DNA of 64,000 nucleotides, from positions 1 to 64,000 of the forward strand of contig JAPXFQ010001354.1 of NCBI GenBank assembly GCA_028564705.1, given 5' to 3'. Source of the DNA: Apricaphanius iberus. Taxonomy: Eukaryota > Chordata > Actinopteri > Cyprinodontiformes > Aphaniidae. Numbering within the stretch: position 1 is the stretch's first letter; the number at the start of each line of letters is the position of its first letter. Below are positions 279-53,530 of this stretch, piece by piece. Position numbers and translations under genes: made by a program. Below the pieces are notes generated by a model that searched no databases, was not told the DNA's origin, and worked only from the letters and a program-made list of their open reading frames with translations.

Positions 279-3200
279 ATGAATCCTGTAAAATTTATAA
301 CATGGAATATTCGCGGCGCTAGCTGCAGAGATAAAACCATTAAGATTTTCAACATCTTACAAGACTGAAGGCAGATGTCGTCTTACTACAGGAGACTCAT
401 AAATCAAGTTCAACAGCTAATGATTTAAAAACACCAGAGTATCCTAATATATTTTCTTCATGCTATAACTCTAGACAACGAGGAGTAGCAATATTAATAA
501 TAGAAATACTAATTTAAAGTAATAGACACAGCTACAGATCCAGAAGGTAGATTTATAATATTAAAACTATTTATAAATAACCAAAAGTTATGTATAGTTA
601 GTATATATGGTCCAAATGTTGACGACCCCTCATTCTTTCATACTTTCTTCTCGGTTCTGGCTAATCACATGGATTGCTCACTTGTTCTTGGGGGAGATTT
701 CAACTTTGGACTAAATGAAGAAATAGACAGGCTCAGTACAGCAGGGACTCAGCGCAGATGGCAATCCATAGATATAGTTAAACAGTACATGAGCGATTAT
801 GGACTCTGCGATGCATGGCGATCGCTTCATCCCAACGACAGAAAATACACTTTTTACTCAAACGTACATCATTCTTATTCTAGATTGGACTATTTGTTAG
901 TCAGCAGCTCACTGTTGAATGACATTTCAGACACTGAGATACATCCTATAGTGATCAGCGATCACGCTCCTGTTTCTTTAAATTTAGCAAATAAAATTGC
1001 AACCCTTCAATATAAAAATTGGAGATTTAATACATCATTACTTAAGGATAAAGAATTTATTAAATATATTGAAAAAGAATGGGCTTCATACATGGAATTT
1101 AATGATCTCCCTGGTATGTCGCCATCCACTCTATGGGAAGCAGGGAAAGCTGTGATTAGAGGTAAAATAATTTCATTCTCATCAAATAAAAAGAGAACAG
1201 AAAATAAACATGTTCAGGAATTAGAAGAAACTATTAAATCATTAGAACCTTCCCTGGATAAAGAGAGCTTAAGTAAAATAAGGAAAGCAAAATTAGAGTT
1301 AAATGAAATTATTAATAAAAGGACGCAGTTCTTAATCCAAAGACTTAGAATAGAAAACTTTGAACATAGTAATAAATCAGGTAGCTTCTTAGCTAATCAG
1401 TTAAAAATAAATAAAGAAAAAACAACTATATCTGCAATCAAAGACAAAACTGGGAATATAATATATGACCCTGAAAAAATAAACAACACTTTCAAAGAAT
1501 TTTATGAGACGTTATACACACCAGAGATAAACCCTTCAAATAATGATATTGTACAATTTCTGGATAAAATAACTCTTCCTAAACTTTCAGACAGTCAAGC
1601 AAAGGCCCTGGATTCACCGCTAACAGTGTCTGAACTCCAGGAGGCCCTCCAATCTATGCCTAATAATAAAGCTCCAGGTCCAGATGGATTTCCAGTAGAG
1701 TTCTATAAAGAATTCTGGAATATTCTGGCACCAACATTTTACAAAATGTTACAGGAAACAAAGGAAAATGGTCGAATACCACCAAACATGAATTCTGCCT
1801 ACATCAATCTTCTATTAAAACCAGGAAAAGACCCTATGTCTCCTACCAGTTATCGTCCCATTTCTCTTATCAATGTGGATCTGAAAATAATTTGCAAAGC
1901 TCTTGCAAGAAGGATAGAGAAAATAACACCTCTAATAATCCACCCTGATCAAACAGGTTTTATAAAAGGTAGGCTCTCTTCCACAAATTCACGTAGATTA
2001 ATAGATTTAATAGATTATTCCCACTGTAAAAACGTCCAAACCAATATATTATCTTTAGATGCAGAAAAAGCATTTGATAGAGTTAACTGGAAATTTTTAT
2101 TTGCAGCCTTAAATAAATTCGGATTCAGTAATTCTTTTGTAAACTGGTTAAAAATATTATACAGCTCACCAACAGCATGTATTAGGACCAATAATCAAAC
2201 ATCATCAAGGTTCTTTCTTCAGAGAGGTACCAGGCAGGGATGTCCACTTTCTCCCTCCCTCTTTGCTATTTTTATTGAACCATTAGCAGCAGCAATCAGG
2301 CAAAATAATAATGTTAAAGGTATACAATGCAACAAAATAGAACATAAAATCAGTTTATACGCAGATGATGTACTACTTTTTCTACAGCATTCACAAACTT
2401 CCTTGTATCAGGTAATTGAGTTAATAAAATCTTACTCAAGAGTTTCAGACTATTCCATAAATTGGTTAAAATCTACAGTCCTTCCTATCAACTGTTCTTA
2501 CCAGAGTCCTGTTGCTTTACAGCTCCGGTCGGGAAATATTACATATCTAGGTATCCATATCTCACCAAGACTGGCAGACTTATCTAAGCTAAACTACGTC
2601 CCACTTTTAAAAAAAGTGGAAGATGATCTGGCAAGATGGAAATCCCTTCCAATATCACTTATTGGAAGGGTAGCTACAATAAAAATGATGGTTTTGCCTA
2701 GAATCAATTATTTATTCTCAATGATCCCAAGCAAACCATCACCTGATTGGTTTAGATCTCTGGACTCTTCTGTTTCTAAATTCCTTTGGAAAGATAAACC
2801 CCCACGTATCAGCTTAAAAACACTACAGAAGTCCAAAGATAAAGGAGGTCTAGACCTACCAAACTTTCGTCATTATTTCTTAGCCAACAGACTCCAATAC
2901 ACATCAAGATGGGTAAAACACAGTTATATCGATGAGTGCTGGGTAGATGTAGAACAGACACTATGCAATAAGATAAAACTTTCAGATCTACCTTTTGTTA
3001 GCTCAAATATAAAACAAAATGAATGTTTCAAAAGTATAAATATCAGCTCCTCTCTGACAGCTTGGTGGGAATTTCTTAAAATGACAAAGACCTCACTAGT
3101 CCCATGCAGGCGTACACCCATCTGGAATAACCCGGATATCTTACAAAAAAAATGCATGATTAACTTTCCGGGCTGGAGTTGTAAAGGAATTGAATACCTG

Positions 3201-4001
3201 GAGCATATATTTGATGGAACAGACTTTATCCCCTTTAATACATTGGTTACACAATTCGGAATTAACAAGAATAAATTCTTAGAATACCAACAAATTAAAT
3301 CAATTATAAAAAATAAATTTAGGCTCAATACAGTTGATTTACAAATTCCAGGAAAAGTTTTAGACTTCCTTAATCTTAACCCTCCCAAACTGCTATCTAA
3401 AATATACAAAACATTAAATAGAATAGATGAATCAATAGCCCTTCCTATTTCAAAATGGGAGATGGACTTGTCCATCTCAATAGACCAAAACCTCTGGTCT
3501 CAAATTTCATTAAGAACCTTCAAATTTCTTAAGAATCCTAATCTACGATTAATACAATATAAAATCCTTCATAGAGTGCATTATACAGGGCAACGGATGT
3601 TCAAGATGGGTTATACGCCGTCTGATACCTGTTTACAATGTACAAGCAATCTACCAGACAATTATATTCATGCTCTTTGGTTCTGCCCACCTGTTAAGAA
3701 ATATTGGTACCAGATATGTGAAGATCTATCAAAGTGTCTGAAATGTAATATCACACCTGCTCCCAGAGTTTGCTTGCTGGGAAATATAGATGAAGTTACC
3801 ATGGATACAAAGTCTATGCAATTATTTTACATCGCCTTATGCATCGCTAAGAAAAATATCCTCTTGAACTGGAAAAATAAAAATACTCTGAATATTAATC
3901 AATATAGAGATCTCCTTCTGGATTACATTGGTCTAGAAACGGCATCTGCCTCCACATCTGATCAATCTTTCTGGTCACCCTTGATCAGTTCCATCACCTA
4001 G
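279..4001 (+). pseudogene. LINE ORF2: AP endonuclease, reverse transcriptase, C-terminal zinc motif
   Basis: ORF2 would nick target DNA and copy the element RNA there by target-primed reverse transcription. The endonuclease starts at ATG 279 with TWNIRGA, stops at TGA 366, and continues one frame over from 365 with LLQETH. After a further shift near 510-520 it joins the long open frame (669-4001, 1110 codons). That frame carries IYGP, GDFN, SRLDYLLVS and SDHAP of the endonuclease. It then has the RT blocks: NNKAPGPDG, YRPISLINVD, LSLDAEKAFDRVNW, GTRQGCPLSPSLF and the catalytic LYADDVLLF (about residue 565). A C-x2-C...H...C motif near residue 1030 (CLQCTS...ALWFCPP) is the L1/Tx1 C-terminal zinc knuckle. 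Only the endonuclease N-terminus is broken, so the copy is fairly young. Without that domain intact it should be unable to insert normally. Confidence 0.9.
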
Positions 4002-24049: not shown

Positions 24050-24604
24050 GCAGTTCTCAAGTCAATACTAAAAAAGAAGAACGTAGACAACATGTTAATG
24101 CAAAACTACAGACCAATCTCTAATCTCCCATTTGTCTGTAAAATTATTGAAAAAGCTGTGTTCGAACACTTAAACAGCTTCCTAACAATGAACAACTGCT
24201 GATAGTATTATATCATCAGTCTGGTTTTCGTAAGCACCAGAGCACCGAGACAGTCCTTGTCAAAGTTTTCAGTGCCAACGGTCAGTATACTGACCGTGGA
24301 AAATCCACACTACTTTTACTATTGGACCTTAGTGCGGCGTTTGACACTATTGATCATGATATATTACTGGAATGTTTAGATGTTTAGGAATGTTTAATTT
24401 CCTCCACCTAAACAAAAACAAAACTGAAGTACTTATCTTTGGACCCAAAAAAGATTGACTAAATGATGACACAAGGAGACCTAGAAAAACTCATCCATGT
24501 TTTTATCTTTAGCCGCCTTGATTACTGTAACAGTTTCTTCACAGGTCTATCTAAAAAATCAGTCAGACAGCTGCAGCTGATCCAGAACGCTGCTGCTCGT
24601 GTTC
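24050..24604 (+). pseudogene. L2 copy B reverse transcriptase, internally deleted
   Basis: [36 protein letters not shown] and [19 protein letters not shown] give the RT fingers and first catalytic Asp. After a deletion the sequence continues with FIFSRLDYCNSFFTGL and LIQNAAARVL of the thumb/C-terminal region. The YADD box is missing. The reading frame continues across the giant insertion into TKTKKIDHINPILKSLHWLP at 39118. Confidence 0.8.
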
Positions 24605-25157
24605 TATGAAGGTAAAAATCTAAAGTTATATGTCAAACATCACAGCAGGGAGAAAAAAAAAATTACACACTCAAACCGATTTTGAAATTGCACTAAAATC
24701 CCAGACATGAAAGACCCTGTGTGAAACAAATGAGTTCGTGTCAGATTTTCACCTGGAGCAAACTTTCACATTAACCTGTTTTGAATGTGAAGTCACATAG
24801 AAATATTCGGACGTCTGCATTAATTTTTATATAAAAATAATTATCGCTCACAGCTAATCGTTAGTTGTTTCTGGCTAAACATATGTTTTAAATGTGTACA
24901 TTTCTGTTTACAACTTCAACGTATTGATTTCAACCACTCGAATCTGCTGTTTAGTGCGCACATCCGCTACGACGAATCACAGCGCGGCAAACAGTACATT
25001 CAGTTTGACACACTACCTGCGCAATATTTGTGTCAAAACTAACTTGTAGTTGAAGGATAAGGGCAGGTGGTTGTGATGTCACCGATATATCAACCAATCA
25101 GAGCATGAGGGTGGGATCTGTTGACGTGCAATATCTTTTTTCCTCTTCATTACCGTC

Positions 25158-25175
25158 ATGGCGCAGCAAGCTGGG
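25158..25175 (+). CDS. Short first exon in the left terminal repeat
   Basis: ATG GCG CAG CAA GCT GGG (M-A-Q-Q-A-G) is followed at once by a consensus 5' splice site GTAAGT (25176-25181). The mirror copy in the right repeat (38426-38409) reads M-V-Q-Q-A-G with the same donor. Conservation of start codon, frame and donor in both repeats suggests a shared 5' exon feeding genes transcribed inward from each end. Here transcription into the element would run into the nested hAT. Confidence 0.5.
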
Positions 25176-25912
25176 GTAAGTTACGTCGCCAAACATCATA
25201 AGACATGTGCGTTATTTCTTTTTTGAAGAGGAAATAGAGCCATATCAGCTAAATATTCCACCCCTATAACACCTTTTATCACGTTTATTTGAATAAGAAC
25301 TCTGGTTAGTGTAAAAATTCACTGCTAGCTTCCCGGCTAGTATAAATACTGTCAGCTATATCCAGGCACAGAGACAACCGGAAAACTTCTCATGACCAAA
25401 TGAGAAAAGCAGTGTTGCCAACTCCTCAGTAAGGAAAGTAGCTATTGGCTGTCCCAAAAGTCGCTAGAAGTCGCTAAATGACGTCATCGCCTAATTTGCA
25501 TAATTGGCAATTTGCAAATAACTGTAACGGACGCTGTAGGAGAGAGGAATAACGTCGTGGGAGAGACAAAAGTGAGTAAAAAAACACCCTAAATATGTTT
25601 AGAACTACAAATGTACAAAAATAATTTCAACATTAACAACATTTAATGATTTTAATGCTTTGTCTAGATCCACATTACACACATCAGTTTTGTCATGTAT
25701 TGTTAAATGTTATAACAGCAAATTTAATCAAAAGATTGTTCTGTAGGGTGAAATTGCTAGCTCTACAACCAACCCTCCTCCTTTATCCGGGCTTGGGACC
25801 GGCAAAGTGACCCAAAAGACACACTCTGGCAGAGTTACTTAGGTTGTTTTTCTTTTAAGTTGTTTTTTTTTTTTTTTTTATGTTTTTTTTTTTTTTTTTC
25901 CATTTTTTTTTT

Positions 25913-26262
25913 AGGGGTGGTTTGTTTAGTTTTCGTTTATAACTTAATACTTTAAAGGCTGGTTGAAGCCGTTTATTGGTGACAAAACAAGTCACGGTAA
26001 ACCATGAACATAATTTGCAACAACAATAACATGTTTAACATTTTTTGTATAGACGGTTTTAACTTGACAACATTAAGTTTTTTTTATTTATTTACTTTTT
26101 TTGAGGGGTGGTTTGTTTAGTTTTCATTTATAACTTAATACTTTAAAGGCTGGTTGAAGCCGTTTATTGGTGACAAAACAAGTCACGGTAAACCACGAAC
26201 ATAATTTGCAACAACAATAACATGTTTAACATTTTTTGTATAACTTGACAACATTAACAATC
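25913..26262. repeat. 191-bp-period tandem duplication inside the hAT
   Basis: The segment starting AGGGGTGGTTTGTTTAG at 25913 is repeated at 26104, with near identity over about 155 bp. It covers words such as TTTAAAGGCTGGTTGAAGCC and GTCACGGTAAACCA. It lies downstream of the transposase stop codon, in the presumed 3' untranslated region. Confidence 0.85.
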
Positions 26263-26402
26263 TAAATTGACCAAAAAGAGACAACAGAAAAAAACTGTCA
26301 GTGGCAAAGAAAATGATAACTAGTTTGGTCCTAATTCAGGTTCATTGTTTTTTACAGGTTCCTCGGCCTCCACACAGACACACACACACACGCTGTGCTG
26401 GC

Positions 26403-28406
26403 TCACAGAAAGAGAAGGTCATCATAATTTTGGTCAAGGCTTTCTATGGCAGGTTCAGCAACTGAGGGAGCTGACTTAAATGAGTAAGCAGCTGATGTGC
26501 CAAAAAGCTGCAAAACATTATCAGGCAGCTTGTGCTCATAGCAAGCCTCACCACACAGTTTCAGACCATATCGGACATACAGGATGGAGTTCAGGGTTTG
26601 CAAGGACATCCGATTTCTAAGTTTGCTTTTTACCACACTCATCTGACTGAATACTCTCTCAACTTCAGCATTTGAGTGTGGCAAGGACAACACAGACACA
26701 GCAGCCATTGCAAGTTCCTGAAATGGGTTGATATCAGCTGCATCCCTGAACTTCCAAATCTCACTCCAGAAGCCCACTGTGTTATTTGTTTCATTCCACC
26801 TACTAAGGTGGATGGCACGCCATTGCTGGACAATCTTGTCTATGTCTGCAGGAGAATAACCAAGGAGCTTGGCTATTTTGGCTATTTCTGCAGGGCTCTT
26901 GTTGTGCTTTAGAGTTTCTACCACATTGAAAACTGACATGTACTGCAATGTTTCAATGTTGTCCGGGAGTCTCACCCTCAACTCATTAGTGAGGGAGATG
27001 GTGAAGGCTACACACCGCTTTCGGACATTGTTCTCCTCTTCAGGCGCAAGGTGGAGCTCAGCTGCCTTTGACTCAAACAGGTAACCAAGGTACGGTTTGG
27101 GACTGATGTATCCATCAATTGGCCCTTTGAGTGCATCAACATTAGCCAGTGGATTCAGCACCCTGCTACTCACAGACTTGATCAGGCTAACCAAGCTGTC
27201 AAGAAGTTTAAGAGGATCAACCTGCTCTCCCTCAAAAGCTTTGATGGCCAACTGTACCTCACCCAGCACTGACTTCAAAAAAGTCAGATACAAAATGTTT
27301 TGAGGATCACTGTACATGGAGTATAAAACATCAGCCATGTAGCAGTGTTCACTGGACTTGGTGACTGCGAAATGCAGTTTAAGTTCCTCCCACTGGTCCA
27401 AAATGCGTGAAACCGCTGGTTCAATGGAGAGCCAACGTGTGGCACACACCTTAGTGATCTGTAAGGGTTTCTCCCCACAGTTGATGGTCTCATATATGGC
27501 CTTGTAGGCCTCCCTGCGCTTTGGAGACACTGAAAACCAGTTATAAGTCTCCCTTACCAAGTACTCCACACTACGGGGGATTGTGTCATTGGAAGCATGA
27601 CTTACAGCAAGCTGCAGAGAGTGACACACACAGCGAATAAGGACAAGATCTTTGAGGCCATACTCCTCCTTCAGCACTTTATGAACCCCATTGTTAATCC
27701 CTGTCATAACAGAGGCGTTGTCAGTCCCTATCCCCAGGAGTTTCTCTTTTTTAAGACTACACTTCTCCAGAAAAGCCACAACAGCACGGGCTATAGATCT
27801 GGCATCTCCTCCCTCTAGCTCAACAAGCCCCAGAAATGTTGAGACAATTGTCTGCTTGGTGTCACTAAAGTACCTTATCACAACCCCCAGGTACTTAGAG
27901 ACACTAACATCTGTGGACTCATCGAGGAGGAGGCTGAAACGCTGGTCACCCACATCTGTGACCAACTTTTTCAGAAAGTATGGTGCTAGAAGACCATTAA
28001 TCATCTCTGTGCACTTTGTCCTGTGCATTTTGAAATGAGTCGCAGCAGTGGAGTCTGAAAAAGCAATTTTACATGCTTCCCCAATATGGTCACATGCCAG
28101 CAAGGAACAGTGTTCAGCAATAGCTAATGCCATGGTGGCTTCAGCCTTTTTTGCAGAGTCTGTTTTTTTAATAATTAATGGCAGCTTGCTCTGGGTGGAG
28201 CTGTTATAAGGCTTTGCCTTTTGAGTATGTTTTTGTGTTGCCATGTGTTTTTTAAAATCACAAAGTTTGGCGTAGAAATCGGCCTTACAGTACATGCAGT
28301 ATGCCCGTGTATTGTCACCAATAAACGGCTTCAACCAGCCTTTAAATTCAGGATTTGATTCCCACTCCTTTCTGTACTTTTGACTGAAGAGTTTAAACTG
28401 AGCCAT
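26403..28406 (-). CDS. hAT-superfamily transposase (KIAA1586/ZNF862-like), intact, 667 aa
   Basis: It catalyses cut-and-paste transposition of its own element. The N-terminal C-x2-C...H-x5-H zinc finger (YCMYCKADFY...FKKHMATQKH, residues about 35-60) is a BED/TTF-type DNA-binding domain. The RNase-H-like core shows LLLDESTDVS (about 155-165) and GTDNASVM (about 225), carrying catalytic Asp residues, and CATRWLS. An inserted helical domain follows. The C-terminal hAT dimerisation region has PFQELAMAAVSVLSLPHSNAEVERVFSQM with the catalytic Glu, then KSKLRNRMSLQTLNSIL. I start at ATG 28406, just before the zinc finger. There is no frameshift or stop, and hAT ends flank it in correct positions. 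The related host genes are domesticated hATs, but the terminal repeats and target duplication show this is a transposon copy. Confidence 0.93.
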   Translation of the reverse strand: MAQFKLFSQKYRKEWESNPEFKGWLKPFIGDNTRAYCMYCKADFYAKLCDFKKHMATQKHTQKAKPYNSSTQSKLPLIIKKTDSAKKAEATMALAIAEHCSLLACDHIGEACKIAFSDSTAATHFKMHRTKCTEMINGLLAPYFLKKLVTDVGDQRFSLLLDESTDVSVSKYLGVVIRYFSDTKQTIVSTFLGLVELEGGDARSIARAVVAFLEKCSLKKEKLLGIGTDNASVMTGINNGVHKVLKEEYGLKDLVLIRCVCHSLQLAVSHASNDTIPRSVEYLVRETYNWFSVSPKRREAYKAIYETINCGEKPLQITKVCATRWLSIEPAVSRILDQWEELKLHFAVTKSSEHCYMADVLYSMYSDPQNILYLTFLKSVLGEVQLAIKAFEGEQVDPLKLLDSLVSLIKSVSSRVLNPLANVDALKGPIDGYISPKPYLGYLFESKAAELHLAPEEENNVRKRCVAFTISLTNELRVRLPDNIETLQYMSVFNVVETLKHNKSPAEIAKIAKLLGYSPADIDKIVQQWRAIHLSRWNETNNTVGFWSEIWKFRDAADINPFQELAMAAVSVLSLPHSNAEVERVFSQMSVVKSKLRNRMSLQTLNSILYVRYGLKLCGEACYEHKLPDNVLQLFGTSAAYSFKSAPSVAEPAIESLDQNYDDLLFL

Positions 28407-28822
28407 GCTGAGCTAGCTAGCAAGATCTTATGTCACAGATAGGTAGGCTACACACACAGTAGACGAGGTGAATAAGTGACTGAGCTGCTGAGGTTGTGTG
28501 AGTCAAATGCAGTGATTTATTTGTGTAACAGCGTCACAGCAAAGAAACGTTTACATTTAAATCCCGCTCTGCAAGCCAGCGGGGGCTTTCTTTTGCGCAA
28601 GCGCATTTCATTTGCAGTCCGGACGCCGAGTGGTGAGGGTCTCCTCTCTCTCTCTGCTCCGCCCATAGACTGTAGATGGGACTGCTGCGCAAGGCTACTG
28701 TGAGACTGGCCGCCTGTAAGTGCTTTGGGACGGGGGAGGGGCTCACGTTGAGGACAGTAACTGCAGAACAATACGTGCTTCACGCCAGAGTCTCCAAAAC
28801 ACCAGATAAGTCTCCAATAACA

Positions 28823-28932
28823 CCAGAAAAAGTCGCTAGATTTGTCGCTAGTCGCTTTTTTGAAAAAAAAGTCGCTATAGGGTCTGAAAAGTCGCTAAAT
28901 CTAGCGACAAAGTCGCTAAGTTGGCAACACTG
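28823..28932. promoter_or_regulatory. Subterminal GTCGCTA repeat cluster of the hAT
   Basis: Within about 100 bp of the right end, GTCGCTA (or GTCGCTT) occurs six times on the plus strand and once as TAGCGAC. Two more occur near the left end (25469-25490). Arrays of short repeats next to hAT ends are known transposase-binding sites, so this role is inferred by analogy. Confidence 0.6.
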
Positions 28933-29462
28933 GAGAAAAGACTAGACATTCATGTTACCCACATGTGATTTTTATTTTTATGTACCACTCACTAATTTTA
29001 AAATCACTTGATAATCCTAGGTAAGGCTGTTGTTCAATTTACACTGGTGATTTGAGAATGAGCAATAGTTTAATCATGTTGAATCAACTGGGCCTGCAGT
29101 TATTTTACACAAGGTATTACTCAAACATAAACTCAGAATGGGTTCATGTGGTAGAAGTTATGAACGTAAGATGAAATGTTGTTGTAAATTACTAAGGTTA
29201 GTTTTGCATAAAGCATATCAAATGTCTTAGTCTGAGAAATGGTTAAATAATTGTCAGATTATTTGTGAGCGTGCCCAAGCATTTACCAAAGTAATAAATA
29301 GGTCTTTAGATATGTTATCATAATATTGCTAAACTTGGGGGAAAGCTGCTTAGCATGAGCTTTACAAATCTAAAGGACCACCAAAAGACCATATTAGATG
29401 AACTGTAATTTGAATATAAAGCATACCATCCCAAAAGCTGCATTACCTACTGAATACATCGA

Positions 29463-30051
29463 TTTTATACCATGGTTTGGGTGAATACTCGATTCTGACT
29501 GGCTGGAAGGTGTACATTAAAAAGTGATGGTGTACACCTAGGAAAGATGTCCCGTCAAATTGCCTGATGACAGTTCTAAATTATTGCACTGGCTCAAATG
29601 GCAACCAAGACTCAACCTTATTTGCATCTCCCTCTGGAAACACACAAGCAGTAAGTAGTGCACTGGCCTTAGAAATGATACTTTTTATATGGTAGCGTAA
29701 GCTAAAGCCAACATCTCACTTCCCATCACCGATAAACTGCTGCGATCGGCTCGTTGTGGCCACGTTGCTTGGCAACGCCTGTATACGGAAGATGTTAAAT
29801 AGTGTGCTCAACTTATAAAAAAACCATTGTGTTTTTAACTGTAAAACATATTAAATTATTATTAATTGATTAAATATTTCTTTCTTTCGTAAGTGACCAT
29901 GGTATAAACGGGACAATGCCCGACGAGGTGTCCATTATCAGAAAATAATGGACTTTGCGGAAGCAACCGTCCTCCGCTTCGTGTCAGACGGTTCACGCAT
30001 GCGCGTCGTCCATTATTTTCTGATAATGAACACCTCGTCGGGCATTATCCC
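29463..30051. mobile_element. MITE-like palindromic sequences inside the giant element
   Basis: Two nested inverted-repeat signals are present. TTTATACCATGGT (29464-29476) mirrors ACCATGGTATAAA (29896-29908). Directly adjacent, a 43-bp arm GGGACAATGCCCGACGAGG... (29910-29952) is mirrored at 30009-30051 with two differences, leaving a 56-bp loop. The second could form a long hairpin. No transposase is present, and the superfamily and exact borders are not clear. Confidence 0.65.
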
Positions 30052-30430
30052 TTACATAGAGCACCGTTCTTGTGAAATGATCGAGGATTGATGTTGAGCG
30101 GACTCATCACAGACGTGCTGTCCGTGGCATTCAACAGATGATGGTGCTGCGTTTCTCTGCACCTCAGTTGATGGAGTATAAACTAGGCTTTAAAGCTTTA
30201 TAAATCTATTCAAAAGTGAAAAGAAGTTTCCAGTAAAACTACTCACCACTTTTTTTTCTCAGGAAGTTAAAAGTACATTTTAAAGAGTAAATTTAAATTT
30301 TGTGATTTTAATGGGGAAATAGTTAACTTTAATGTTTTTAGACTGTCATTATTTGAATTGTAATTTTTGAAGGATCATGCCAAAGTACTTGTTTAAGTAT
30401 TTGTCATGTTTGCTGTTACTAAACTAGATC

Positions 30431-30517
30431 ATGTATCTGAGGGTATCAAACAACAATCTTGCAACAACAACCTTGGCTTTCTTCCGGGAAGCAATACAGA
30501 CTTTTGGTTTGCCAGAG
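30431..30517 (+). pseudogene. Integrase-like transposase exon of the giant element
   Basis: ATG TAT CTG AGG... encodes MYLRVSNNNLATTTLAFFRE...FGLPER and stops at a consensus donor GTAAGT (30518-30523). I recognise this as the block of a fish integrase-core (rve-like) protein family around the second catalytic Asp, where the next exon normally starts VRTDQG or VRGDQG. It is on the plus strand, opposite to the HECT gene. I could not find the following exon with the DQG block nor a clear upstream exon, so the transposase is probably truncated. A weaker exon-like stretch (30830-30928, ending AAAG|GTAC, with an in-frame stop) lies downstream. Confidence 0.6.
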
Positions 30518-32139
30518 AGGTAAGTATGGCTCCCACTATGAATAGTTTTGGCTGTTATTTGTGTTAAAGAGGCTATATGAAGTTTCCTGAAATTTCAACT
30601 CTTGACTAATCTATTCTGTCCGTGGAAAAAAATCCAAAACCTCCTATCAATAACTTCTGCTACAATCTGACTATTAGATTACAAAAAAAAGAAGAAAAAA
30701 AGTCAGCATTTTCATTCCATGCTGTGCAGGAACTGCGTCAGATATTTTAATAAAAGCGCAAGCGTTTAATTTTACTTTTATCTGTAGTTCTTTGGTCAGG
30801 TTGTTTTGACTGAATATTACTTAACAGATACTATTGAAAAGTTATTAACTCGTCAGATGATTGTTGGAGATGAATAGCTTGCAGACAAACTGGACTCTGA
30901 CGAAATAATAAACCTGTTAAAGGTACAGTTTTTGCAGTTATTTTGTACATTTTTCATAATATTAGAGGTAATTTGGATGAAGTAGGCTATAATAAAAGTT
31001 CACAGAAAAGATAATGTATTTGTTTTTATTCTGATGGAGCTTTGTACGTTCATAAATGTCAACTTCTCCAACTTCAGCAGAACAGAAAACCATATCCCAA
31101 GGATCCACAATTTTAATCTATACTTCAAACAGTGCAACTGACATTCAACTGTACTTTTCATAAAAACCTAATTTAATGAACACTTGTTCTCACAGTGACC
31201 ATTAGTAAAATTAAGAACATCTTAGTAACGGTAGTTTAGTGTACCCTAACTGTACCGTACAAATACAGTCAATGCAATTTCATATTAGTCCAAACCCACT
31301 GTCATTAGTAGCAATGCAACCTTCCAAATTTTGTTTGAATCCCTCATAAGTTGTGTAGTGACTAGGCAAGCGCAGGATGTGAAAACAAGTGGAAGATGTT
31401 GGATAGTCTGCCTTTACCACCTCCACTTGCATGTCCTGTATGGGTATCTCCCAGCCAACCCAGAACTTCACCAACTGCTTTAGTTTCGGATCTGCCACTA
31501 AAAAAGGAAATAAAGGAAATCAGAGAACAAGTTAAATCAATAACATATACAAATTTAAGAAAAACTTCGCAATGTCAGTTATCCTAAAATGTACTTTTAT
31601 TTTACATCTTTGTGTTTTACAGAGATAAAAAATTTGGAAGAAGTTTATTTAATTTTGTATATTTTATTTAGTATACTAAATATTTGCTGAACTGGTCACT
31701 GTGTAATCAGCTAGATAAATATTTATCTGAAAGTAAACTTTTATAATAAAGTTGGCGATTCTCAATGCACACCATTTGGAAAACAGACATTTCTCTATAA
31801 ACTGCCGGAGGTAACCAGCAACCAACGATTTGGCAGCGGTGTGAGCATCCATCCTCTTGTTCATCTTCCTCGGGCCAGATTATGTTTTGAAGAACCATCT
31901 TTATAAAAAAAAAATAAAGTGTGGCTGAAGATAAAACTATATATCTTTATTTTTTTAAATATATAATCTGAACAATGTAACATACCTGGGCACTTCATTC
32001 AGCCATTTTGTGACATGGGACAACCACGGGTACGACATCTGGTCTGGCCTCCAAGAGTGGCCATAACATTGACTCTTTCAAGCCTTGCCTCAACTGCTGT
32101 ATTTGTTGAGAGCTTCGTCCGAGGACCTACAAAAACAGA

Positions 32140-32850
32140 AACTCAAAAAATTACAATATTGTTTAAAAGTTAATTTATTTCAGAAATTCAACTTAAAATT
32201 TTCATTACGTGATGCAGACACTATTTTTAAGACAAAGCTTATAACCTTCCCTTTTTGGAAAAGCTTATAGTTAGAATGGCTTGGGTTATCCTGAGCTATT
32301 TTTGTAGCTATGCTGCTATAGGTTTAGACTGTTGGAGGACAGACTACTTATCTTCTCTCCTACTTTTCTCTTCTACTACTCTCCAGATATATTTTTCTGC
32401 TGTTATTGCCATTGTTAATCTTACACAGTCTGAGGATACCTGGTCTGGTATCCTGCTCAAATATAACGCCCTCTGCTGGATGAGGAACATCGGTCTAGAT
32501 GATGCTCAAAGAGTCCGAGCATCCTCCATGCGGTCTCTTCTCTGTCTTAGATGCACAGACGGTCGTGGCAGATGACCGCTTGTACTGCGCAAGGTTCTGG
32601 TTCTGCCAGAGGTTTCTTCCTGTTAAAGGGGAGTTTTTCCTTTCCTTTGTCTCTACATGCAGTATTATGGATTGCTGAATTTGGATTGCTGTGGTTGGAG
32701 GTAGGCCTCAATGGCGCCCAACCCCTTATCAACGACTTCATGCAATCTGCTGGGATTCCTTAGATATAAAACTTTTAACAGATTGGAATGTTTGTATAAT
32801 TGTATTGAAAATACTTTTGTTGTAAAGTGCCCTGAAAAGTGAATTGAATT
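32140..32850 (+). mobile_element. L2 LINE 3' end inserted in a HECT-gene intron
   Basis: This begins at the last L2 ORF2 codons (FKTKLITFPFWKSL) and continues through typical L2 3' untranslated words: GGTTCTGCCAGAGGTTTCTT, TTAAAGGGGAGTTTTTCC and TAAAGTGCCCTGAAAAG. A 5'-truncated copy, plus strand, antisense to the HECT gene. Confidence 0.75.
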
Positions 32851-34017
32851 ATGATGCATTAAGATATTGAATTGCATAGAATCATTTATATTATTTTAAT
32901 TGTAATTGAATCAAATCATGAGCCTTGTGAAGATTCACACCTCCATTATAGTCATTGACACTTTGAGCCTATAATATTGAACCTTTTCACAATATTCTAT
33001 TTTTCTGAGATTTTGAATATGGGGTTTTCATAAACTAAGCCATATTCTTAAAAACCATAACAAAAAAAGGGCTGAAATATCGCTCTTTGCATGTAATGAG
33101 TCTATATAATATATTAGTTTCACCTTTTTTTAAAATGGAATGACTTAAATGAACTTTTGCAACATATTCTAATTTTTCAAGTTAACTTGTACATAAAGAT
33201 TTAATGTGTAAATATATCAAGGAAAAAAAATTGCCCTGGTTTTTGCAATTATCTTACTTCAAACATTTTTTGTAGTTTGTTTAAACATTCATATTTTTAA
33301 ACTACTGAACACCTGAGAAAAGAAAGTAATCACTGCAATGAATTATTTGTAATAACCAGCTAAAATGTTTGCATTTCATTTGACCCCACCGCATGTTGAA
33401 GAAGGCTTTGTAAAAGCCAGGCACGGTTCGATGTTGTTAGAGTCGGAAGGTCCCAGGATAAGGCTTTTTCAACAGAAAGCTTTTGATCCTCTGCGAGTGA
33501 GGTGACTGTTTTCTCATCTCCCATCTCGAAGTCATCTGCTTCAAGTTTCGTTAAGAAAATAGATAGAATACTAACAATAAATATCAGAAGACATGCCAAT
33601 TCATGTGGCATACATAACGTATAGATATGATTCAATCCTACCAGCTGTATTGTTTCTCGAATATCGATATCAGCCACATCTTCCAGCACAATTGGAGCTG
33701 TCTCTGGAGAGCCACAAACCAACACATGTAGGATTGCAGGGCTGACACCTGTTAGTGCAGGACCACTATGCAGAAAAGAGTGTCCAATCATTCTGCCCGC
33801 CATCTTAAACAAGTCGCTTTGCAACAATTTTGAGGTGGAGGGGATGAGGTGGTCAGCTTAGCCCTCAAACACTTAAGTCCCAGTTCTAGTTCCTATATGA
33901 ATAAAGAAAAACAAACCTAGTGACAAGTGTGCCATTGAGAAAAAGACAGTTGATTTGTAAGCCAAAGTAGAATATGCCAGTTGTGTTAAAATGTGTTCAT
34001 CTTTGTTTCTTAGTTAT

Positions 34018-34217
34018 GCAGTGTGTACGGAAAGTATTCAGACCCCTTTAAATGTTTCCCTCTTAGTTTCATTGCAGCCATTTGCTAAAAAACACAATAG
34101 TTAAATTTATTTCTCATTAATGTACACTCAACACCCCATCTTGACAGAAAAAAAGTTGAAATTTTGTCAAATCTGTTAAAAAACAAAAACTGAAATATAA
34201 CAAAAAGTATTCAGACT
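34018..34217 (+). mobile_element. Tc1/mariner end fragment (type 1)
   Basis: GTACGGAAAGTATTCAGACC, then TTTCATTGCAGCCATTTGCTAA and TCATTAATGTACACTCA, are the terminal and subterminal sequence of a widespread fish Tc1-like transposon. Only one end is present. Confidence 0.75.
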
Positions 34218-35960
34218 AGGGCTGGGCGATTAATCGCTTACGTTTTCAAGCCATATCGACCAGCTCTAATTCAAACCCTTTGCAGTGACACTCATATGGC
34301 CCCTTTTCAATAGGGTCAGAATGGTCTAGAATGGGTAGGTTTAGAACCGTTTCTACTTGTTTCCATTACCTGTGTCCAGTCCGAGCCATGTGGGGTGAGT
34401 GAGTCTTTTATCCAGTGTTAACCAGTGTTAGTAGCCTTCAAATTCCGATTAGAAGGTCAGTTATGTTTCAGAGTAATTTTATTAGCCATGTCAGCAAAAC
34501 TCAATGGTAGTATAACGTGCCTGTCCCAGCTAAGAGCGTGTTTCACACTACATACAGGCTATGGTTTCAAAATGAATTAACCATACATTTATTTTATTAG
34601 GTTATTAGCATCGGCAGGCTGAAAGGCTTATGATAGTTTAGCACTAGTTCACTGCAATAGATTGAATCATGTGATCACAATGTTAAATTTAAAAAAGTAC
34701 TTTTTATCTCGTTTTCCAACACCTGAGCTGTGTGACTTGGTGTGGTGTCAACAAGCATGTCCGGCCATGTGCATCACATTTAAGTGTCCCCTGAAAAATC
34801 ACTTCCATTGTGTTGTGGTCTATTTGCAGCATTTTTTTGTGTGTTGTGTGGTGTTTTATTTGCAGCATTTTTTTACGTGTTGTTTTATATGCATTGCATT
34901 TTTATGTGTTGTATTTTATTTGCAGTGCATTTTTTTTAACGTATCTGTTGTTTTTCTGAATCTGCTTGTGTTTTGTCTTTTTGCATGTGTTTTCTTAAGT
35001 TGTGTGCTGTGACCCCTCGATTTGAATTTTTGATTTTGGGGTCACAATTTGATTTTCGATTTTATTACATTTTTTTCCTTTAGAGTACAGAGCCCTATGT
35101 CCTTTTTAGACTAGTATACGATGATTGATTTTATTCATTGCATTGTGTACAGTTAATCTTATTTTAAAAGACAAAAGTGATTCCATTTTTATTATTCTTC
35201 TGTAATGTATCACATTAGGCATTAATGGTCAATTTAACATATATACTTTTTTTCTAAATTAGTTAACAGTATTGTTTAAATAACAGAAATGATTAGTAAC
35301 AGAGGGTGGCTGCCATCTACTTACTCTTTATAGTTACTGCAGAATGATGGACATAATGCTCCAGACAGCTCACTGGACTGAGCAAAGTGCAGCTAACAGT
35401 GTTCCTCCTTTTTACAATAAGAATGTGGACTTAACTTGCTGGGAACTCAAAATTTCCCCACTAGTGATTTGACAGTATTAGGAGCAGTTTTAGCTCTGCT
35501 CGTGCTGCTTCATCTATCCATGCCGTGGTCGAGCGTTAGCTTAGCCAATAGCTACTAGCTAGCGTCAGCTAATGTGCTCTGCAAACGTGCGCTCTGATCA
35601 CGGGGGATGTGATACAGGAAGTTAAAATGTTACCAGGTGGTGTTGTGAGTTGTATGAGAACTGGTGAGTTACTTGTTAGGAAAAATGCAATGTGTGGTTC
35701 TTTGTGATGGGATGGGTGTCTGCTAACTATTGCTAGTGGGACGCACAGTAAACATAGGAAGAGGATGTGATTGCCATCCTCTTTTGGATTTCCATGTGCA
35801 AGGTTGCAAACTTAATTTCAATCGATTTTGATACAAAATCAAGATAGTGAAACCCCTACTGTCACCACATTGTAGCAAATAAATAAACACTCAGCAAATA
35901 AATAATAGAAAATAAATAATAAGGATTATACTTGTTAAAACACAAGAACAAATTCTGTCA
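34218..35960. other. Unassigned interior of the giant element, with a degenerate T-rich tandem repeat
   Basis: CTAGGGCTGGGCGATTAATCGC at 34216-34237 resembles the end of a small hAT-like repeat. Positions 34815-34975 contain four or five degenerate units around TTTTATTTGCAGCATTTTTT. The remainder (35000-35960) shows no coding similarity. Undetected small HECT exons could lie here between exons 3 and 4. Confidence 0.4.
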
Positions 35961-36289
35961 AATAAAGAAAAATACTGCACCTCACTGTGATCAGCATCAT
36001 CTGAGATTTACGGTTCTCCTTCCTAAACCAGCTTGCAATAGCACCGTTTCATCTTTTGGAGTTCTGCTTGAGTTTTGTGGTAACAGACAGAATTGGAGCT
36101 CTAACAACTGTGAAGTTGTCGTTCTAAGAGGTTCAGGGGCTTTCCTTTTAAGACATGCCAGGCTTCCTTTAAATATTGCTGGAAAAGACCTTAAGATAGG
36201 GAAAAACAAAATACAAGGACAATACAGATATTTGAACAAACATGTCTGGATTTATTTTTATTTGAGATTTCCGAACTAAATGTATTTTT

Positions 36290-37610
36290 GCCAACGTTGT
36301 TTTTTTCTTTTCAGAAAAAATCTTTATGCCAGAAATGTCTGTTCAATTTCAATAGTAGTAACTACTCTAACCAAACTTTTAGAAAAACTCGTAACGTAAA
36401 CAAAAAGGTTTCCCGTCCAAAGTCAGTAAAATGCAATAGCAAACAAATATTTTAGGAGATAAATGACTGACGCACTTAATGTAGTTTTCAAGACCCAACA
36501 AAAACTAAATGTTTGGAATTGCTGAGCTAGAGGTTCCTCTTGACATTTTTTTGTCCGTCATTTTGACTGGCAGGCAAAAAAAAATGTGGTCACAATGTAT
36601 TTTGCTCCGGCGTCATGCCTGTCTCCAGCAATTGTCTGAGGAGTTACAACCTATTCAATAGAATCTGTCTTTTTTTTCTAAAGTAGTATTCAACCAAACA
36701 ACCTGACCAAAGAACTACACATTAAAATTATATTAAACACGAATACCGGATGTGGTTCCTGTCAGACAAAGAACGCGAATGCTCACGTTTCTTTGGTAAT
36801 CTAACAGTCGGATTTTTGCAGCAGTTAATGTCATGAGGTTTTGAATTAGAATAAATCATCTTTCATGGGGGTTTGAGTGTTGATCTGCAGGCAGAATCCA
36901 CGCTTCGCTCCCACACTGGAGACCGCAAATAAGTTAATCAATTCAGACAGAAAGTTTTAACATGAGGAAACAGTTTTCCCATTAAAGCGAACAGAAGTCA
37001 AATAACTTAAGAACAACGTTTCCTGACTCATATTTATCAAAGGAAAGCCTGCAGTTAAAGCAGCAGCAGGCGACCTACGACACCTGTGTTTGGCACACAT
37101 CAGGCTCTTTGGAGTGCGTCTAACCCATTGCCCTACACAAAGTCGCAGCTCCTGGTCAGCGACATGCATTGGATACAGTAATTGGGAACTTTTTGTTTTT
37201 AATTAATGTATTTAGCTGTGATGTACTGGTGACATATTCAGGGTGTACCCTGACTCTCCCCCGATGACTGCTGGAGATTTGCACCAGACTCCCCGTGACC
37301 ATTCAAGGCAAAGTGGAATAAATAATGGAATCCATTTACATGGACTCAGTTCATACAGTCTAAATAAAATCTGGGCATTTACCTTCAAGTGTTAGAGGAC
37401 GGTGTGGAAACTAATCTTTAAAACTACAGACAGCCTTCAGATTTTTTCATAGCGCTTATAAAAAAACGGTCAAATACAGAAACTATTCATTTAACTTGAT
37501 CCTTGTGTTGAACATAGATCATAAGAATTTCTATTTCTCTTTAAAGCTATATGAATACTCGCATTACCGACCTATTAATAAAATATTTTAAGGGGGTTTG
37601 AAGATCATTC
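36290..37610. other. Unassigned interior of the giant element
   Basis: No recognisable domain or repeat. The interval lies between HECT exons 2 and 3 and is probably intron plus unidentified insertions. A 70-codon minus-strand frame (37169-36957) is not convincing. Confidence 0.35.
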
Positions 37611-37978
37611 TTTTAGACCTTTGCATTTCGTGATGGACTGTACTTTGTCCAACAGGCTGAATGGAGTTTCCACGGGCCGCCTTGCTCCAAGAGAATCACT
37701 TGGCAGTTCCACATTTTCTCTGGATTGTTGAGTTGGGTGTCTTCTTATGAGGCTTAGAAGATTTCTGACAGCAGTTTCAATGTTTGCATTGTGTTGATCC
37801 TAGCAAGACATAAAAAACTTTTGGTGCAAGAATGGTTTTATATAAACCTAATGAAAATGATTTGTCATTAGTTACTAAGACTGCTATATTGTGATATGTG
37901 TACTATATATTCACGCTATACTAAAACTTCAAATCATATGAGGTGAGGTAAAATTTTTATCATCCAGGCATAGTTCAG

Positions 37979-39111
37979 TCTGAGTTTATGTTTGAGTAAT
38001 ACCTTGTGTAAAATAACTGCAGGCCCAGTTGATTCAACATGATTAAACTATTGCTCATTCTCAAACCACCAGTGTAAATTGAACAACAGCCTTGCCTAGG
38101 ATTATCAAGTGATTTTAAAATAAGTGAGTGGTACAAAAACATAAAAAACACATGTGTAACATGAATGTCTAGTCTTTTCTCATTTTGGTCCTGAGAAGTT
38201 TTACGGTTGTCTCTGTGCCTGGATATAGCTGACAGTATTTATGCTAGCCGGGGAGCTAGCAGTGAATTTTCACACTAACCAGAGTTCTTATTCAAATAAA
38301 CTTGATAAAAGGTGTTATAGGGGTGGAATATTTAGCTGATATGGCTCTATTTCCTCTTCAAAAAAGACATAACGCACATGTCTTATGATGTTTGGCGACG
38401 TAACTTACCCCAGCTTGCTGCACCATGACGGTAATGAAGAGGAAAAAAGATATTGCACGTCAACAGATCCCGACCTCATGCTCTGATTGGTTGATATATC
38501 GGTGACGTCACAACCCCCTCCCCTTTCCCCCCTTCGCCCCCCTGCCCTTATCCTTCAACTACAAATTAGTTTTGACACATATATTGCGCAGGTAGTGTGC
38601 CAAACTGAATGTACTGTTTGCGGCGCAGTGATTCGTCATAGCAGATGTGCGCACTAAACAGCAGATTCGAGTGGTTGAAATTAATATGTTGTAAACAGAA
38701 ATGTACACATTTAAAACATATGTTTAGCCAGAAACAACTAACGATTAGCTGTGAGCGATATTTTTTTTAAATAAAAATGAATGCAGATGTCTGAATATTT
38801 CTATGTGACTTCACATTCAAAACAGGTTAATGTGAAAGTTTGCTCCAGGTGAAAATCTGACACGAATGCATTTGTTTCACACAGGGTCTTACATGTCTGG
38901 GATTTTAGTGCAATTTCAAAATCAGTTTGAGTGTGTGTTTTTTTTTTTCTCCCAGATGTGATGTTTGACATATAACTTTAGATTTTTGCTGCTCAAGTTC
39001 TCAAAATCTATTCTACAAGTGTTAGGATAGATGTTTGACATATAACTTCAGATTTATGTTGCTCAAGTTTGCTAATGGTTTTCTACAAGTGTTCACATAT
39101 TTACCTTCATA
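37979..39111. repeat. Right terminal inverted repeat of the giant transposon
   Basis: Reverse complement of the left repeat. It carries the unoccupied hAT site (38174-38181) and the mirror start-codon exon (38426-38409, donor 38408-38403). Near its tip are two tandem units of about 70 bp sharing TTATATGTCAAACATC (reverse complement), where the left end retains only one. Confidence 0.9.
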
Positions 39112-39117
39112 GTGTTC

Positions 39118-45811: not shown

Positions 45812-45952
45812 TTGTTTGTCCTATCTGTTTCTGCCCCCTTCTATGGACTGGAGACCTGTCCAGGGTGTACCCAGCCAGTCACCCGTTGACCGCTGGAGGC
45901 ACCAGCCCCCCTGTGACCCCTCGAGGATAAGCAGTATAGAAAATGGATGGAT
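45607..45952 (+). mobile_element. tRNA-derived SINE with GGAT tail and internal (TG)n(TA)n
   Basis: 5'-truncated in the A box. GAGTTCAAATCTCAG is the B-box region, followed by TGGAGTTTGCATGTTC and GACTGGAGACCTGTCCAGGG. The 3' end has CCCCCCTGTGACCC, GGATAAGC and GGATGGATGG. Flanks ATTTCCATATG and ATTTCCACATG (one difference) look like an 11-bp target duplication. A dinucleotide microsatellite (45761-45810) has grown inside it. Confidence 0.85.
45761..45810 (+). repeat. Microsatellite (TG)n(TA)n
   Basis: A TGTGTG run followed by TATATA repeats inside the SINE body. Confidence 0.95.
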
Positions 45953-49184: not shown

Positions 49185-51838
49185 ATGAGAATATTCACAG
49201 GCTTATTGGGGAACAATTTGGGTTGGCAACCCTTAAAATGGTGCGGGAACGATGAAAGGTTGGCTCGGAAAATTGCAGATTACAGAAACCACCTGCGTTT
49301 CAGTTTGAGATGCAAACAACAAAGGCTCAACCCAAATAGCCTACGCTTAAATTCCACTATGAGAGGGCATAGAGTGGAAAAGATCATAGAAAAGGCACAA
49401 ACCCAACTCCTCAATGAACGAATAAGACAAGTCAATTTCTCAGTTGAAGGTCTGAAAGAGAGAGCAGACCATTCACTACAGAAACTGATGTCAATCTTAC
49501 CTAGTCCTATCTTAGACAGAGTTGTGGTTTTCACCCAGACAGCACAACTATCTCAACACACCAAGAGCAAAGTAAGACAAACCAGGAAATTCCACAACCT
49601 GCAAACTCGAAACCTCGACAAAAACACTGAAACACTGACTTGGAGGCAAAAAACTGACATCCCAACACAGAATGAAACACAAAACAGCTGGGTAAAGAAC
49701 TTGTCAGAAAAAGAACGTACCCACCCGGAGAAAGAGGTCCTAGCCAAGGGTTTGAACTTTGCCATGACACCAAAAGAGTTACCCATAGAGGACTGGATTA
49801 CAGCCACAAAATCCACTATAAAGAAAAACAACTTAACTGGAACAGAGGCAGAACAACTTCGGTTAAAAGTGTCGGCAGCTTTGTCTGAGGCTAAGGTCCC
49901 CCCCTCTAATGTCACTGTTGAGGAGAGGAAAGCAGTATCATCACTGAGCAAGGAGCACAACATCACAATCCTTCCAGCAGATAAAGGTAAATGCACAGTT
50001 GTGCTCAATACAACTGATTACCACACCAAGATCTTTGCACTATTGAATAGGGATGCAACGGGACAGGGTAAAGTACCGGGACCTTTCGAGTACTGCCATT
50101 GATTTTGTGCTGGTAATTAGTTACTGCCGGCCTGACGTTACCAAACTGCGCCGCGCTCCCAGACACAGGTGCAACAACCAGCTCGCTGTTCCCCGCTCAA
50201 GCAGCTGGTTGGCATAGAGACATGTCCTCCTCTCCACAATGCGCACAACACGGAGCACCGTGAGGAGCGAAAAAATATACACTGGTCAGTTGCGCATTTT
50301 TCAGAAATCAGCCCTGGTGTGAGGCGTTGCTCAAATTTCTCCTGACTTGAGCTCTTTCTGCCCGGGTGGGCTGCAGGATCCAGGGGCTCCGGTTTGCGCT
50401 GTTTTCATCTCCTCTTAGCGGTGCGCCGGAGCGCGAAGCAAAGAGGAGATGTGATGCGCTCCATTCATTGATGCACACACAAATGCCCTTTGAGCAGCGG
50501 GCACACAAAGAATATTTATCCGCCACCTGTGTCAGTGTGGTCAGATGCGCTCTCGTTGCACCCCTACTACTGAATGACTCTAACACGTATGAAACTCTCA
50601 AACGAGACCCCACGAGTGGGTACAAAAAGAAGGTGTTAGAATGTTTACAACAACTACAAAAAGAAGGCATGATTGACAAAACACAATACTACCGACTTTA
50701 CCCCCAGGACTGAATTCCTTGCCTATATGGACTTCCCAAGATCCATAAAGGGGCCCCGCTCGGGCCCATTGTCAGCAGCATAACCTCTGTCACGTACAAT
50801 ATAGCCAAACACATAGCCAATATCCTGGCACCTCTGGTAGGTAACACCCCACACCACATCCAAAACTCCATTGACTTTGTGAACAAAGTCCGGAACCTAA
50901 AAATGGATCCAGATGAGACAATGGTTTCCTATGACGTGACTTCACTGTTCACCTGTATTCTTACCATGGAGGCCTTGGCCACAGTAAGAGAACGACCTAC
51001 ACAGGACAACTCCCTCCAAAACAGAACAAAACTCACACCAGAACAAATTTGCCAACTTCTGGAATTGTGCCTGAACACCACATATTTCCAGTTCAATAGC
51101 AAGTTTTATAGACAGTAACACGGCTGTGCCATGGGCTCACCAGTTTCTCCAATTGTGGCAAATTTATTCATGGAGGAGGTAGAGTGCAGGGCTTTGAACT
51201 CCTTTGAAGGAATAACACCTAACCACTGGTTCAGATACGTAGATGACACATGGGTTAAAATCAAAACCAAAGAGGTGCAAACTTTTACTGAACACATAAA
51301 CTCAGTGGACAGAAACATCAAATTCACCAGAGAAGATGTCAAGGACAATAGTTTGCCCTTTTTAGATTGTGTCATCCAGAGGAGAAAGGACAGAAGGCTC
51401 CACATTGGGGTATACAGAAAATCCACACACCCAGACCAATACCTACTTTTTGACTCACACCACCCACTGGAATACAAGCTTAGTGTTATCAGGACCCTGC
51501 AACACAGAGCTGATAACATACCCACCAGCTCACAGGCCCAAGAGGAAGAACGCAAGCAAGTGAGAGACACCCTCACAACTTGTGGTTACCCCAGCTGGAC
51601 TTTTGTGAAAACTGCAGCTAGAAAGAAAGCCAACAAAGTGGTTGAAAAAGAAAACAAAACAAACGAAACAATGTAGTCATTCCATATGTGTTTGGGATTT
51701 CTGAAAAACTCAGGAGGATTTTTAACAAACACAGTATCCCTGTGTATTTCAAACCCAGCAACACACTCAGACAGAGACTAGTACATCCCAAGGACAGAAC
51801 ACCACAAAACAAAGCCAAAGGAAAACTTCCAAACCCTT
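49185..51838 (+). pseudogene. Penelope-like reverse transcriptase ORF
   Basis: The N-terminal part (49185-50039) is a Lys/Arg- and Asn-rich region ending HNITILPADKGKCTVVLN, the conserved entry to Penelope RT. After the MITE (50048-50566) the frame resumes exactly (FALL-NDSNTYETL). RT blocks follow: GLPKIHKGAPLGPIVSS, MVSYDVTSLFT, GCAMGSPVSPIVANLFMEEVE, WFRYVDDTWV (active site; YVDD) and DNSLPFLDCVI. A TGA at about 50711 and a TAA at about 51116 interrupt it. A shift near 51670 puts the end (VVIPYVFGISEKLRRIF, VYFKPSNTLRQRL) in another frame. The C-terminal GIY-YIG endonuclease is absent. Confidence 0.85.
50048..50566. mobile_element. hAT MITE, 519 bp, inside the Penelope ORF
   Basis: Ends TAGGGATGCAACG and CGTTGCACCCCTA are inverted repeats. 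Flanks CTATTGAA and CTACTGAA are an 8-bp target duplication with one change. Removing it rejoins the RT frame. It is GC-richer than its host and non-coding. Confidence 0.9.
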
Positions 51839-53179: not shown

Positions 53180-53530
53180 TATCAAGAATATAGGCTTAAA
53201 ACTTTCCTCTTTGACAAAGCTTACAGTGAGAGATACGTTAATAGGCAGTTAAGAGACAGGTTAGACAGGTAGCTAGTAAGAGACGAGTTAATGTTAGTAG
53301 CTAGGTAGAGTGTCAAAAGCTAGGAAGGGATATGAAGAGGTAGAGTAGCTAGGTAGAGATAGGTTAATGTAAGCCAGGTAGAAAGTGTTAGTAGCTAGGT
53401 CTCCTAGTAGCTAGGAGACAGGTTAATGTTAGTAGCTATGCTGCTTTAGGCTAGGCTGTTGGAGGACATTATTAGGATCTGTTCCTACTTTCTCTCCTAC
53501 TTCTCCCAGACTGCATAATGTGCTGTCAGT
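53180..53530 (+). mobile_element. L2 LINE 3' fragment with internal short repeats
   Basis: TTTGACAAAGCTTACAGTGAG (ORF2 C-terminus) leads into repeats of GTTAGTAGCTAGGTAGAG-type words (53225-53450). GGCTAGGCTGTTGGAGGAC and TCTCTCCTACTTCTCCC follow, matching the 3' untranslated region seen at 32310-32380. Confidence 0.7.

Follow-up and report, generated by a model that had tools for sequence, protein, structure and literature searches.

Positions 24605 to 39111 of the window (the whole 64,000-nucleotide stretch of Apricaphanius iberus DNA that was analyzed) are occupied by a transposon, spanning 14,507 bp when a second transposon nested within it is included (Table 1). The left terminus, TATGAAGGTAAA at 24605-24616, is the exact reverse complement of the right terminus, TTTACCTTCATA at 39100-39111; the perfect match between the inverted termini extends over 12 bp, and each terminal 12-mer occurs only once in the 64-kb window. 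Reconstruction of the empty site from the flanks and one copy of GTGTTC yielded one open frame of 83 aa across the joint. The insertion site is a LINE copy: Pfam analysis of four flank frames revealed a reverse transcriptase (PF00078, E 1.8e-7) in the frame at 24151-24384, and the remaining three, including those adjoining the joint, had no Pfam match. The initial annotation had described a 14.5-kb transposon with ends exact to the base, GTGTTC duplicated on both sides and the reading frame of a putative L2 LINE joining over the gap. The ends are borne out by the 12-bp termini, the GTGTTC pair (24599-24604 and 39112-39117) and the closing LINE frame; the length is correct for the distance between the ends, but 3.5 kb of it consist of the nested transposon. 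This insert and its duplication account for 3,531 of the 14,507 bp, and the length of the host element without them is about 10,976 bp (approximately 11.0 kb).

Table 1. Positions of the features of the transposon and of its nested insertion in the window.
Feature	Positions	Strand	Details
Left target-site duplication	24599-24604	.	GTGTTC
Left terminal inverted repeat, outer piece	24605-25409	+	starts TATGAAGGTAAA
Putative first exon in left repeat	25158-25175	+	ATGGCGCAGCAAGCTGGG (MAQQAG), then GTAAGT
hAT target duplication, left copy	25402-25409	.	GAGAAAAG
Nested hAT transposon	25410-28932	-	3,523 bp; inverted termini perfect over 14 bp (CAGTGTTGCCAACT)
hAT open frame	26403-28412	-	669 codons; first ATG is the third codon
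hAT target duplication, right copy	28933-28940	.	GAGAAAAG
Left terminal inverted repeat, inner piece	28941-29140	+	blastn
HECT last exon	31283-31498	-	STCF motif; frame 31283-31519 matches PF00632 (E 1e-7)
HECT exon	31793-31946	-	reading-frame change between 31842 and 31837
HECT exon	31986-32126	-	TGA at 31995-31997
HECT region	33387-33944	-	TAA at 33873-33875 and 33858-33860; probably includes a short intron
HECT exon 3	35981-36189	-	SFPAIF..; identity with P0105 62% in 63 columns
Proposed HECT exon 2	37619-37799	-	phase agrees with exon 1 at start; end, in another frame, resembles P0105 and P0047
Right terminal inverted repeat	37976-39111	-	1,136 bp
Putative HECT first exon in right repeat	38409-38426	-	ATGGTGCAGCAAGCTGGG (MVQQAG), then GTAAGT
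Two copies of 70-bp subterminal unit	38960-39093	-	84% alike over 64 bp
Right target-site duplication	39112-39117	.	GTGTTC

The left terminal inverted repeat, about 1.0 kb in total, is split into two pieces because the nested hAT transposon sits inside it. Comparison of the left and right repeats by blastn revealed 34 mismatches over 821 columns for one piece and 7 over 208 columns for the other, corresponding to approximately 954 of 995 ungapped columns when counted from the blastn table; a looser alignment, which extended beyond the inner edge, yielded 953 of 1,016. The repeats had been described as highly similar and about 1.0–1.13 kb long, and the similarity and both lengths agree with this, but the left repeat is not continuous. 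The outer ends also differ, in that the left end of the transposon contains just the tail of one 70-bp subterminal unit, whereas the right end contains two units. A putative role of these units would be that of transposase binding sites.

The nested transposon, which the initial annotation overlooked, exhibits an 8-bp target duplication, short inverted termini beginning with CAGTG and a hAT dimerisation domain, all features of the hAT superfamily. Its open frame lacks introns and contains Dimer_Tnp_hAT (PF05699, E 7.8e-7) and DUF4371 (PF14291, E 1.4e-7) in the Pfam analysis; the element may be complete, and its insertion is later than that of the host element. Compared with the hAT superfamily, nothing about it is unusual except an inner duplicated block of 165 bp, which occurs twice in 25887-26242, the copies being separated by 191 bp and 94% alike; a 39-bp part of either copy matches, in inverted orientation and at 97%, positions 28308-28346 near the start of the transposon's own frame.

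Several other repeats were observed in the window. A small palindromic repeat with 62-nt arms, 84% complementary and resembling a miniature inverted-repeat element, lies inside the host element at 29903-30058. Comparison of the interior with itself and with the rest of the window revealed dispersed repeats of 67–78% identity, namely 30631-30870 with 36622-36847 (inverted, 67%), 37221-37329 with 45843-45947 (73%) and 32298-32387 with 53426-53510. Outside the element, a 1,162-codon open frame at 513-3998 (plus strand) resembles a LINE-type protein by eye, as do frames at 50714-51673 (plus strand) a Penelope-type reverse transcriptase.

The interior of the transposon carries a HECT ubiquitin-ligase gene. 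When a conceptual protein assembled from its exons was used as the query, 166 proteins were retrieved at E ≤ 0.001 among 2,312 candidates, and the best 120 of these 166 were used for further searches. All of those with a species name among the 120 matches listed were from fishes; the three best were 69–70% identical over 80–82% of the query, and another was 73% identical over 49%. Searches with the 120 listed relatives placed the homology on the minus strand in the order 36191-36003, 33944-33387, 32126-31986, 31946-31793 and 31498-31283. The Pfam scan of 122 frames detected HECT in one frame, with a score above the Pfam cut-off, and a zinc knuckle in one (E 0.036); the latter was taken as chance, as were other sub-threshold matches to unrelated families. 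The HECT domain includes the STCF motif, the cysteine of which we take to be the catalytic one. In sequence the gene is like the fish proteins named 'G2/M phase-specific E3 ubiquitin-protein ligase-like', but the gene in the window is broken: it contains three in-frame stops and frame changes, and about 280 residues are absent, a profile search having revealed nothing convincing for residues 88–370 of the 576-aa relative P0105 (Trichomycterus). The HECT gene that had been reported inside the transposon is real, but the copy is broken and incomplete.

Analysis of the repeats showed that both contain ATG-G(C/T)G-CAG-CAA-GCT-GGG followed by GTAAGT, a consensus donor. In the right repeat, this putative exon ends in phase 0 ahead of the donor, and the open stretch of the proposed exon 2 begins at 37799, immediately downstream of a T-rich tract and TAG. 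When its 3' end is translated in another frame and spliced to the exon at 36189, the sequence EMQRSFPAI results, which P0105 likewise has near its start. EM.RSF was found near the start of 2 of the 120 listed HECT proteins, P0105 and P0047, each of which aligns, in a single shared frame, with the exon 2 3' end (E 6.5e-4 and 0.015, respectively; values per query, for 120 queries against a 200-base target consisting of the exon alone). The next best match, P0011 (E 0.004), was in a different frame and was taken as chance, as were weaker other-frame matches. The start and the end of exon 2 lie in different reading frames, which is compatible with decay of the gene but makes the proposal less secure. 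Exon 2 has a weak donor, GTCTAA, and the 59 residues read from the exon 2 start had no relative among 6 candidates. The frame at 37608-37799 had also been considered as the start of a transposase; this was dropped, since its 3' end matches HECT proteins. For the first exon in the left repeat, no later exon was found on the plus strand. Upstream of both ATGs lies CCAATCAG (25094 and 38483), and TGACGTCA at 38503 is present only in the right one of the two repeats; both are putative promoter motifs, with 5 and 3 occurrences in the window, respectively. Being copies of one another, the two repeats do not provide independent evidence for the shared exon and motif. Exon 1 of the HECT gene plausibly lies inside the right repeat, as judged from phase and homology. 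Of the first exons previously placed inside the terminal repeats, the ATG stretch with its consensus donor was found in both, but a continuing gene is arguable for the right one only.

An integrase-like exon had also been assigned to the interior, and the searches for an integrase did not recover it. None was detected by Pfam, which covered 122 of the 137 frames that are 38 aa or longer and lie outside the hAT core; the remaining 15 are in the outer repeats or edges or overlap the hAT transposon. Similarly, tblastn with the best 120 of 1,477 PF24764-type hits as queries revealed no convincing integrase, nor did a profile built from those 120 proteins and applied to 2,623 frames 15 aa or longer. 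The PF24764 proteins are here taken to be IS3EU transposases. The best tblastn hit (E 0.016) was in the nested hAT transposon, the best one in the element outside it (E 0.065) covered 20 residues in the right repeat, and within the element the profile gave no match better than E 12; all were taken as chance. As a control, the same profile method recovered a HECT exon of 43 aa at E 1e-17, a lenient control because close HECT relatives were available. A transposase that is more divergent or further decayed might be present in the element.

IS3EU transposons are described in PMC10045372 as having TA..TA termini and usually a 6-bp target duplication. The element terminates in TATGAAGG..CCTTCATA (TA..TA) and is flanked by the 6-bp GTGTTC, in agreement with the IS3EU resemblance that the initial annotation had noted for its ends and duplication; no IS3EU-clade DDD/E transposase was detected in this copy by Pfam, tblastn or profile. 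The label 'IS3EU-like, non-autonomous' is the best for these sequence features, short of proven membership.

That the element is a decayed member of a different integrase-type superfamily making 6-bp duplications (such as GingerRoot, Dada or Polinton/Maverick) seems unlikely, although each shares part of this signature. According to the same paper, GingerRoot has 6-bp duplications and mostly TA..TA termini and is grouped with IS3EU, and Polintons have a 6-bp target duplication (PMC10045372), as GTGTTC is here. Against a Polinton, the Pfam analysis of 122 frames revealed no DNA polymerase, capsid or protease family at E 0.05. DNA polymerase B, capsid and protease are on the Polinton/Maverick gene list; the repeats of Polintons can be long, and their end sequences differ from the ends seen here. 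Dada duplicates 6 or 7 bp but usually inserts in multicopy small-RNA genes, although a medaka copy inserted into a hAT element is reported (PMC8869645). In the present case the insertion lies in a LINE rather than in a small-RNA gene, and ARAGORN found 0 tRNA genes in the window.

That the HECT sequence is a piece of a host or unrelated gene that entered the interior later, for instance by a nested insertion, is in our estimate quite improbable. Nothing in this copy links HECT with an integrase, and the interior does contain other dispersed repeats (the first two pairs above); however, the HECT gene covers most of the interior on one strand, with its proposed exon 1 in the right repeat and in phase, and a scan of 29140-37975 for a single insert type, stretches of 80–3000 bp whose inverted ends match perfectly over 10 bp and which have exact duplications of 7–12 bp, revealed none. 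Two separate insertions of a short inverted-repeat element round unrelated DNA, the case that the initial annotation had named against itself, are very improbable: only one copy is visible in the 64-kb window and the outer ends differ by a 70-bp subterminal unit, but there is one GTGTTC pair round the whole, the terminal 12-mers are unique, the LINE frame closes exactly and the proposed HECT splice leads out of the right repeat. A virus origin was also considered and rejected; an exact 28-bp pattern had no match, and protein scans of viral contigs gave 5, 12 and 118 pattern stretches, none of which was confirmed.

The IS3EU-like element can be compared with several known systems. IS3EU accounts for 17,838 entries and 0.21% of the genome in zebrafish (PMC4746887) and is listed for killifishes (PMC12763893). 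Compared with this superfamily, the present element has the same TA..TA termini and 6-bp duplication, but no detectable transposase and a HECT cargo. Fungal IS3EU elements carry TET/JBP and alpha-kinase families as cargo (PMC12730594), and Styx is a cargo-bearing fungal IS3EU (PMC10853768); extra genes are common to these and the present element, whereas the hosts there are fungi and the cargo is other than HECT. In MuDR of maize, two genes converge from promoters and start sites that lie within the terminal repeats or slightly internal to them (PMC3440606). MuDR offers only an analogy for how repeat-borne first exons might function; its repeats are about 215 bp and its superfamily is different. 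No report of HECT together with IS3EU was found in the open-access literature, nor any relevant open-access report of HECT with transposons in fish, teleosts or zebrafish; the sole match apparently concerned transgenic plants. The element may already be entered in Repbase or Dfam.

Taken as a whole, a model of an IS3EU-like DDE transposon with repeat-borne first exons and a HECT cargo, followed by decay and the hAT insertion, appears fairly probable. An IS3EU-like transposon, presumably of the DDE cut-and-paste type, entered the LINE and duplicated 6 bp of it. Each kilobase repeat would provide a short first exon with a consensus donor below a promoter-like stretch, giving an inward transcript from either end. 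The exon in the right repeat is predicted, from phase and homology, to open the HECT ligase gene carried as cargo; its partner from the left repeat, probably a transposase gene, was not found in this copy, and any mobility of the copy would have depended on transposase from another. The HECT gene then decayed and the hAT transposon landed in the left repeat, and this copy is apparently a dead, non-autonomous relic.

It is conceivable, and we propose it only tentatively, that the many HECT 'G2/M phase-specific E3 ligase-like' genes in fish genomes were spread as cargo of IS3EU-like transposons, the kilobase repeats of which would supply a transposase gene and a HECT ligase gene, in convergent orientation, with the same promoter and first exon. 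If the HECT ligase is a regular cargo, this would explain a large fish gene family as baggage of transposons and would add a ubiquitin ligase to their accessory proteins, comparable to the TET/JBP enzymes in fungi. Repeat-borne first exons would offer a simple rule for finding such elements. This copy alone is of modest importance; its main value is as a lead on the many HECT ligase copies in fish genomes.
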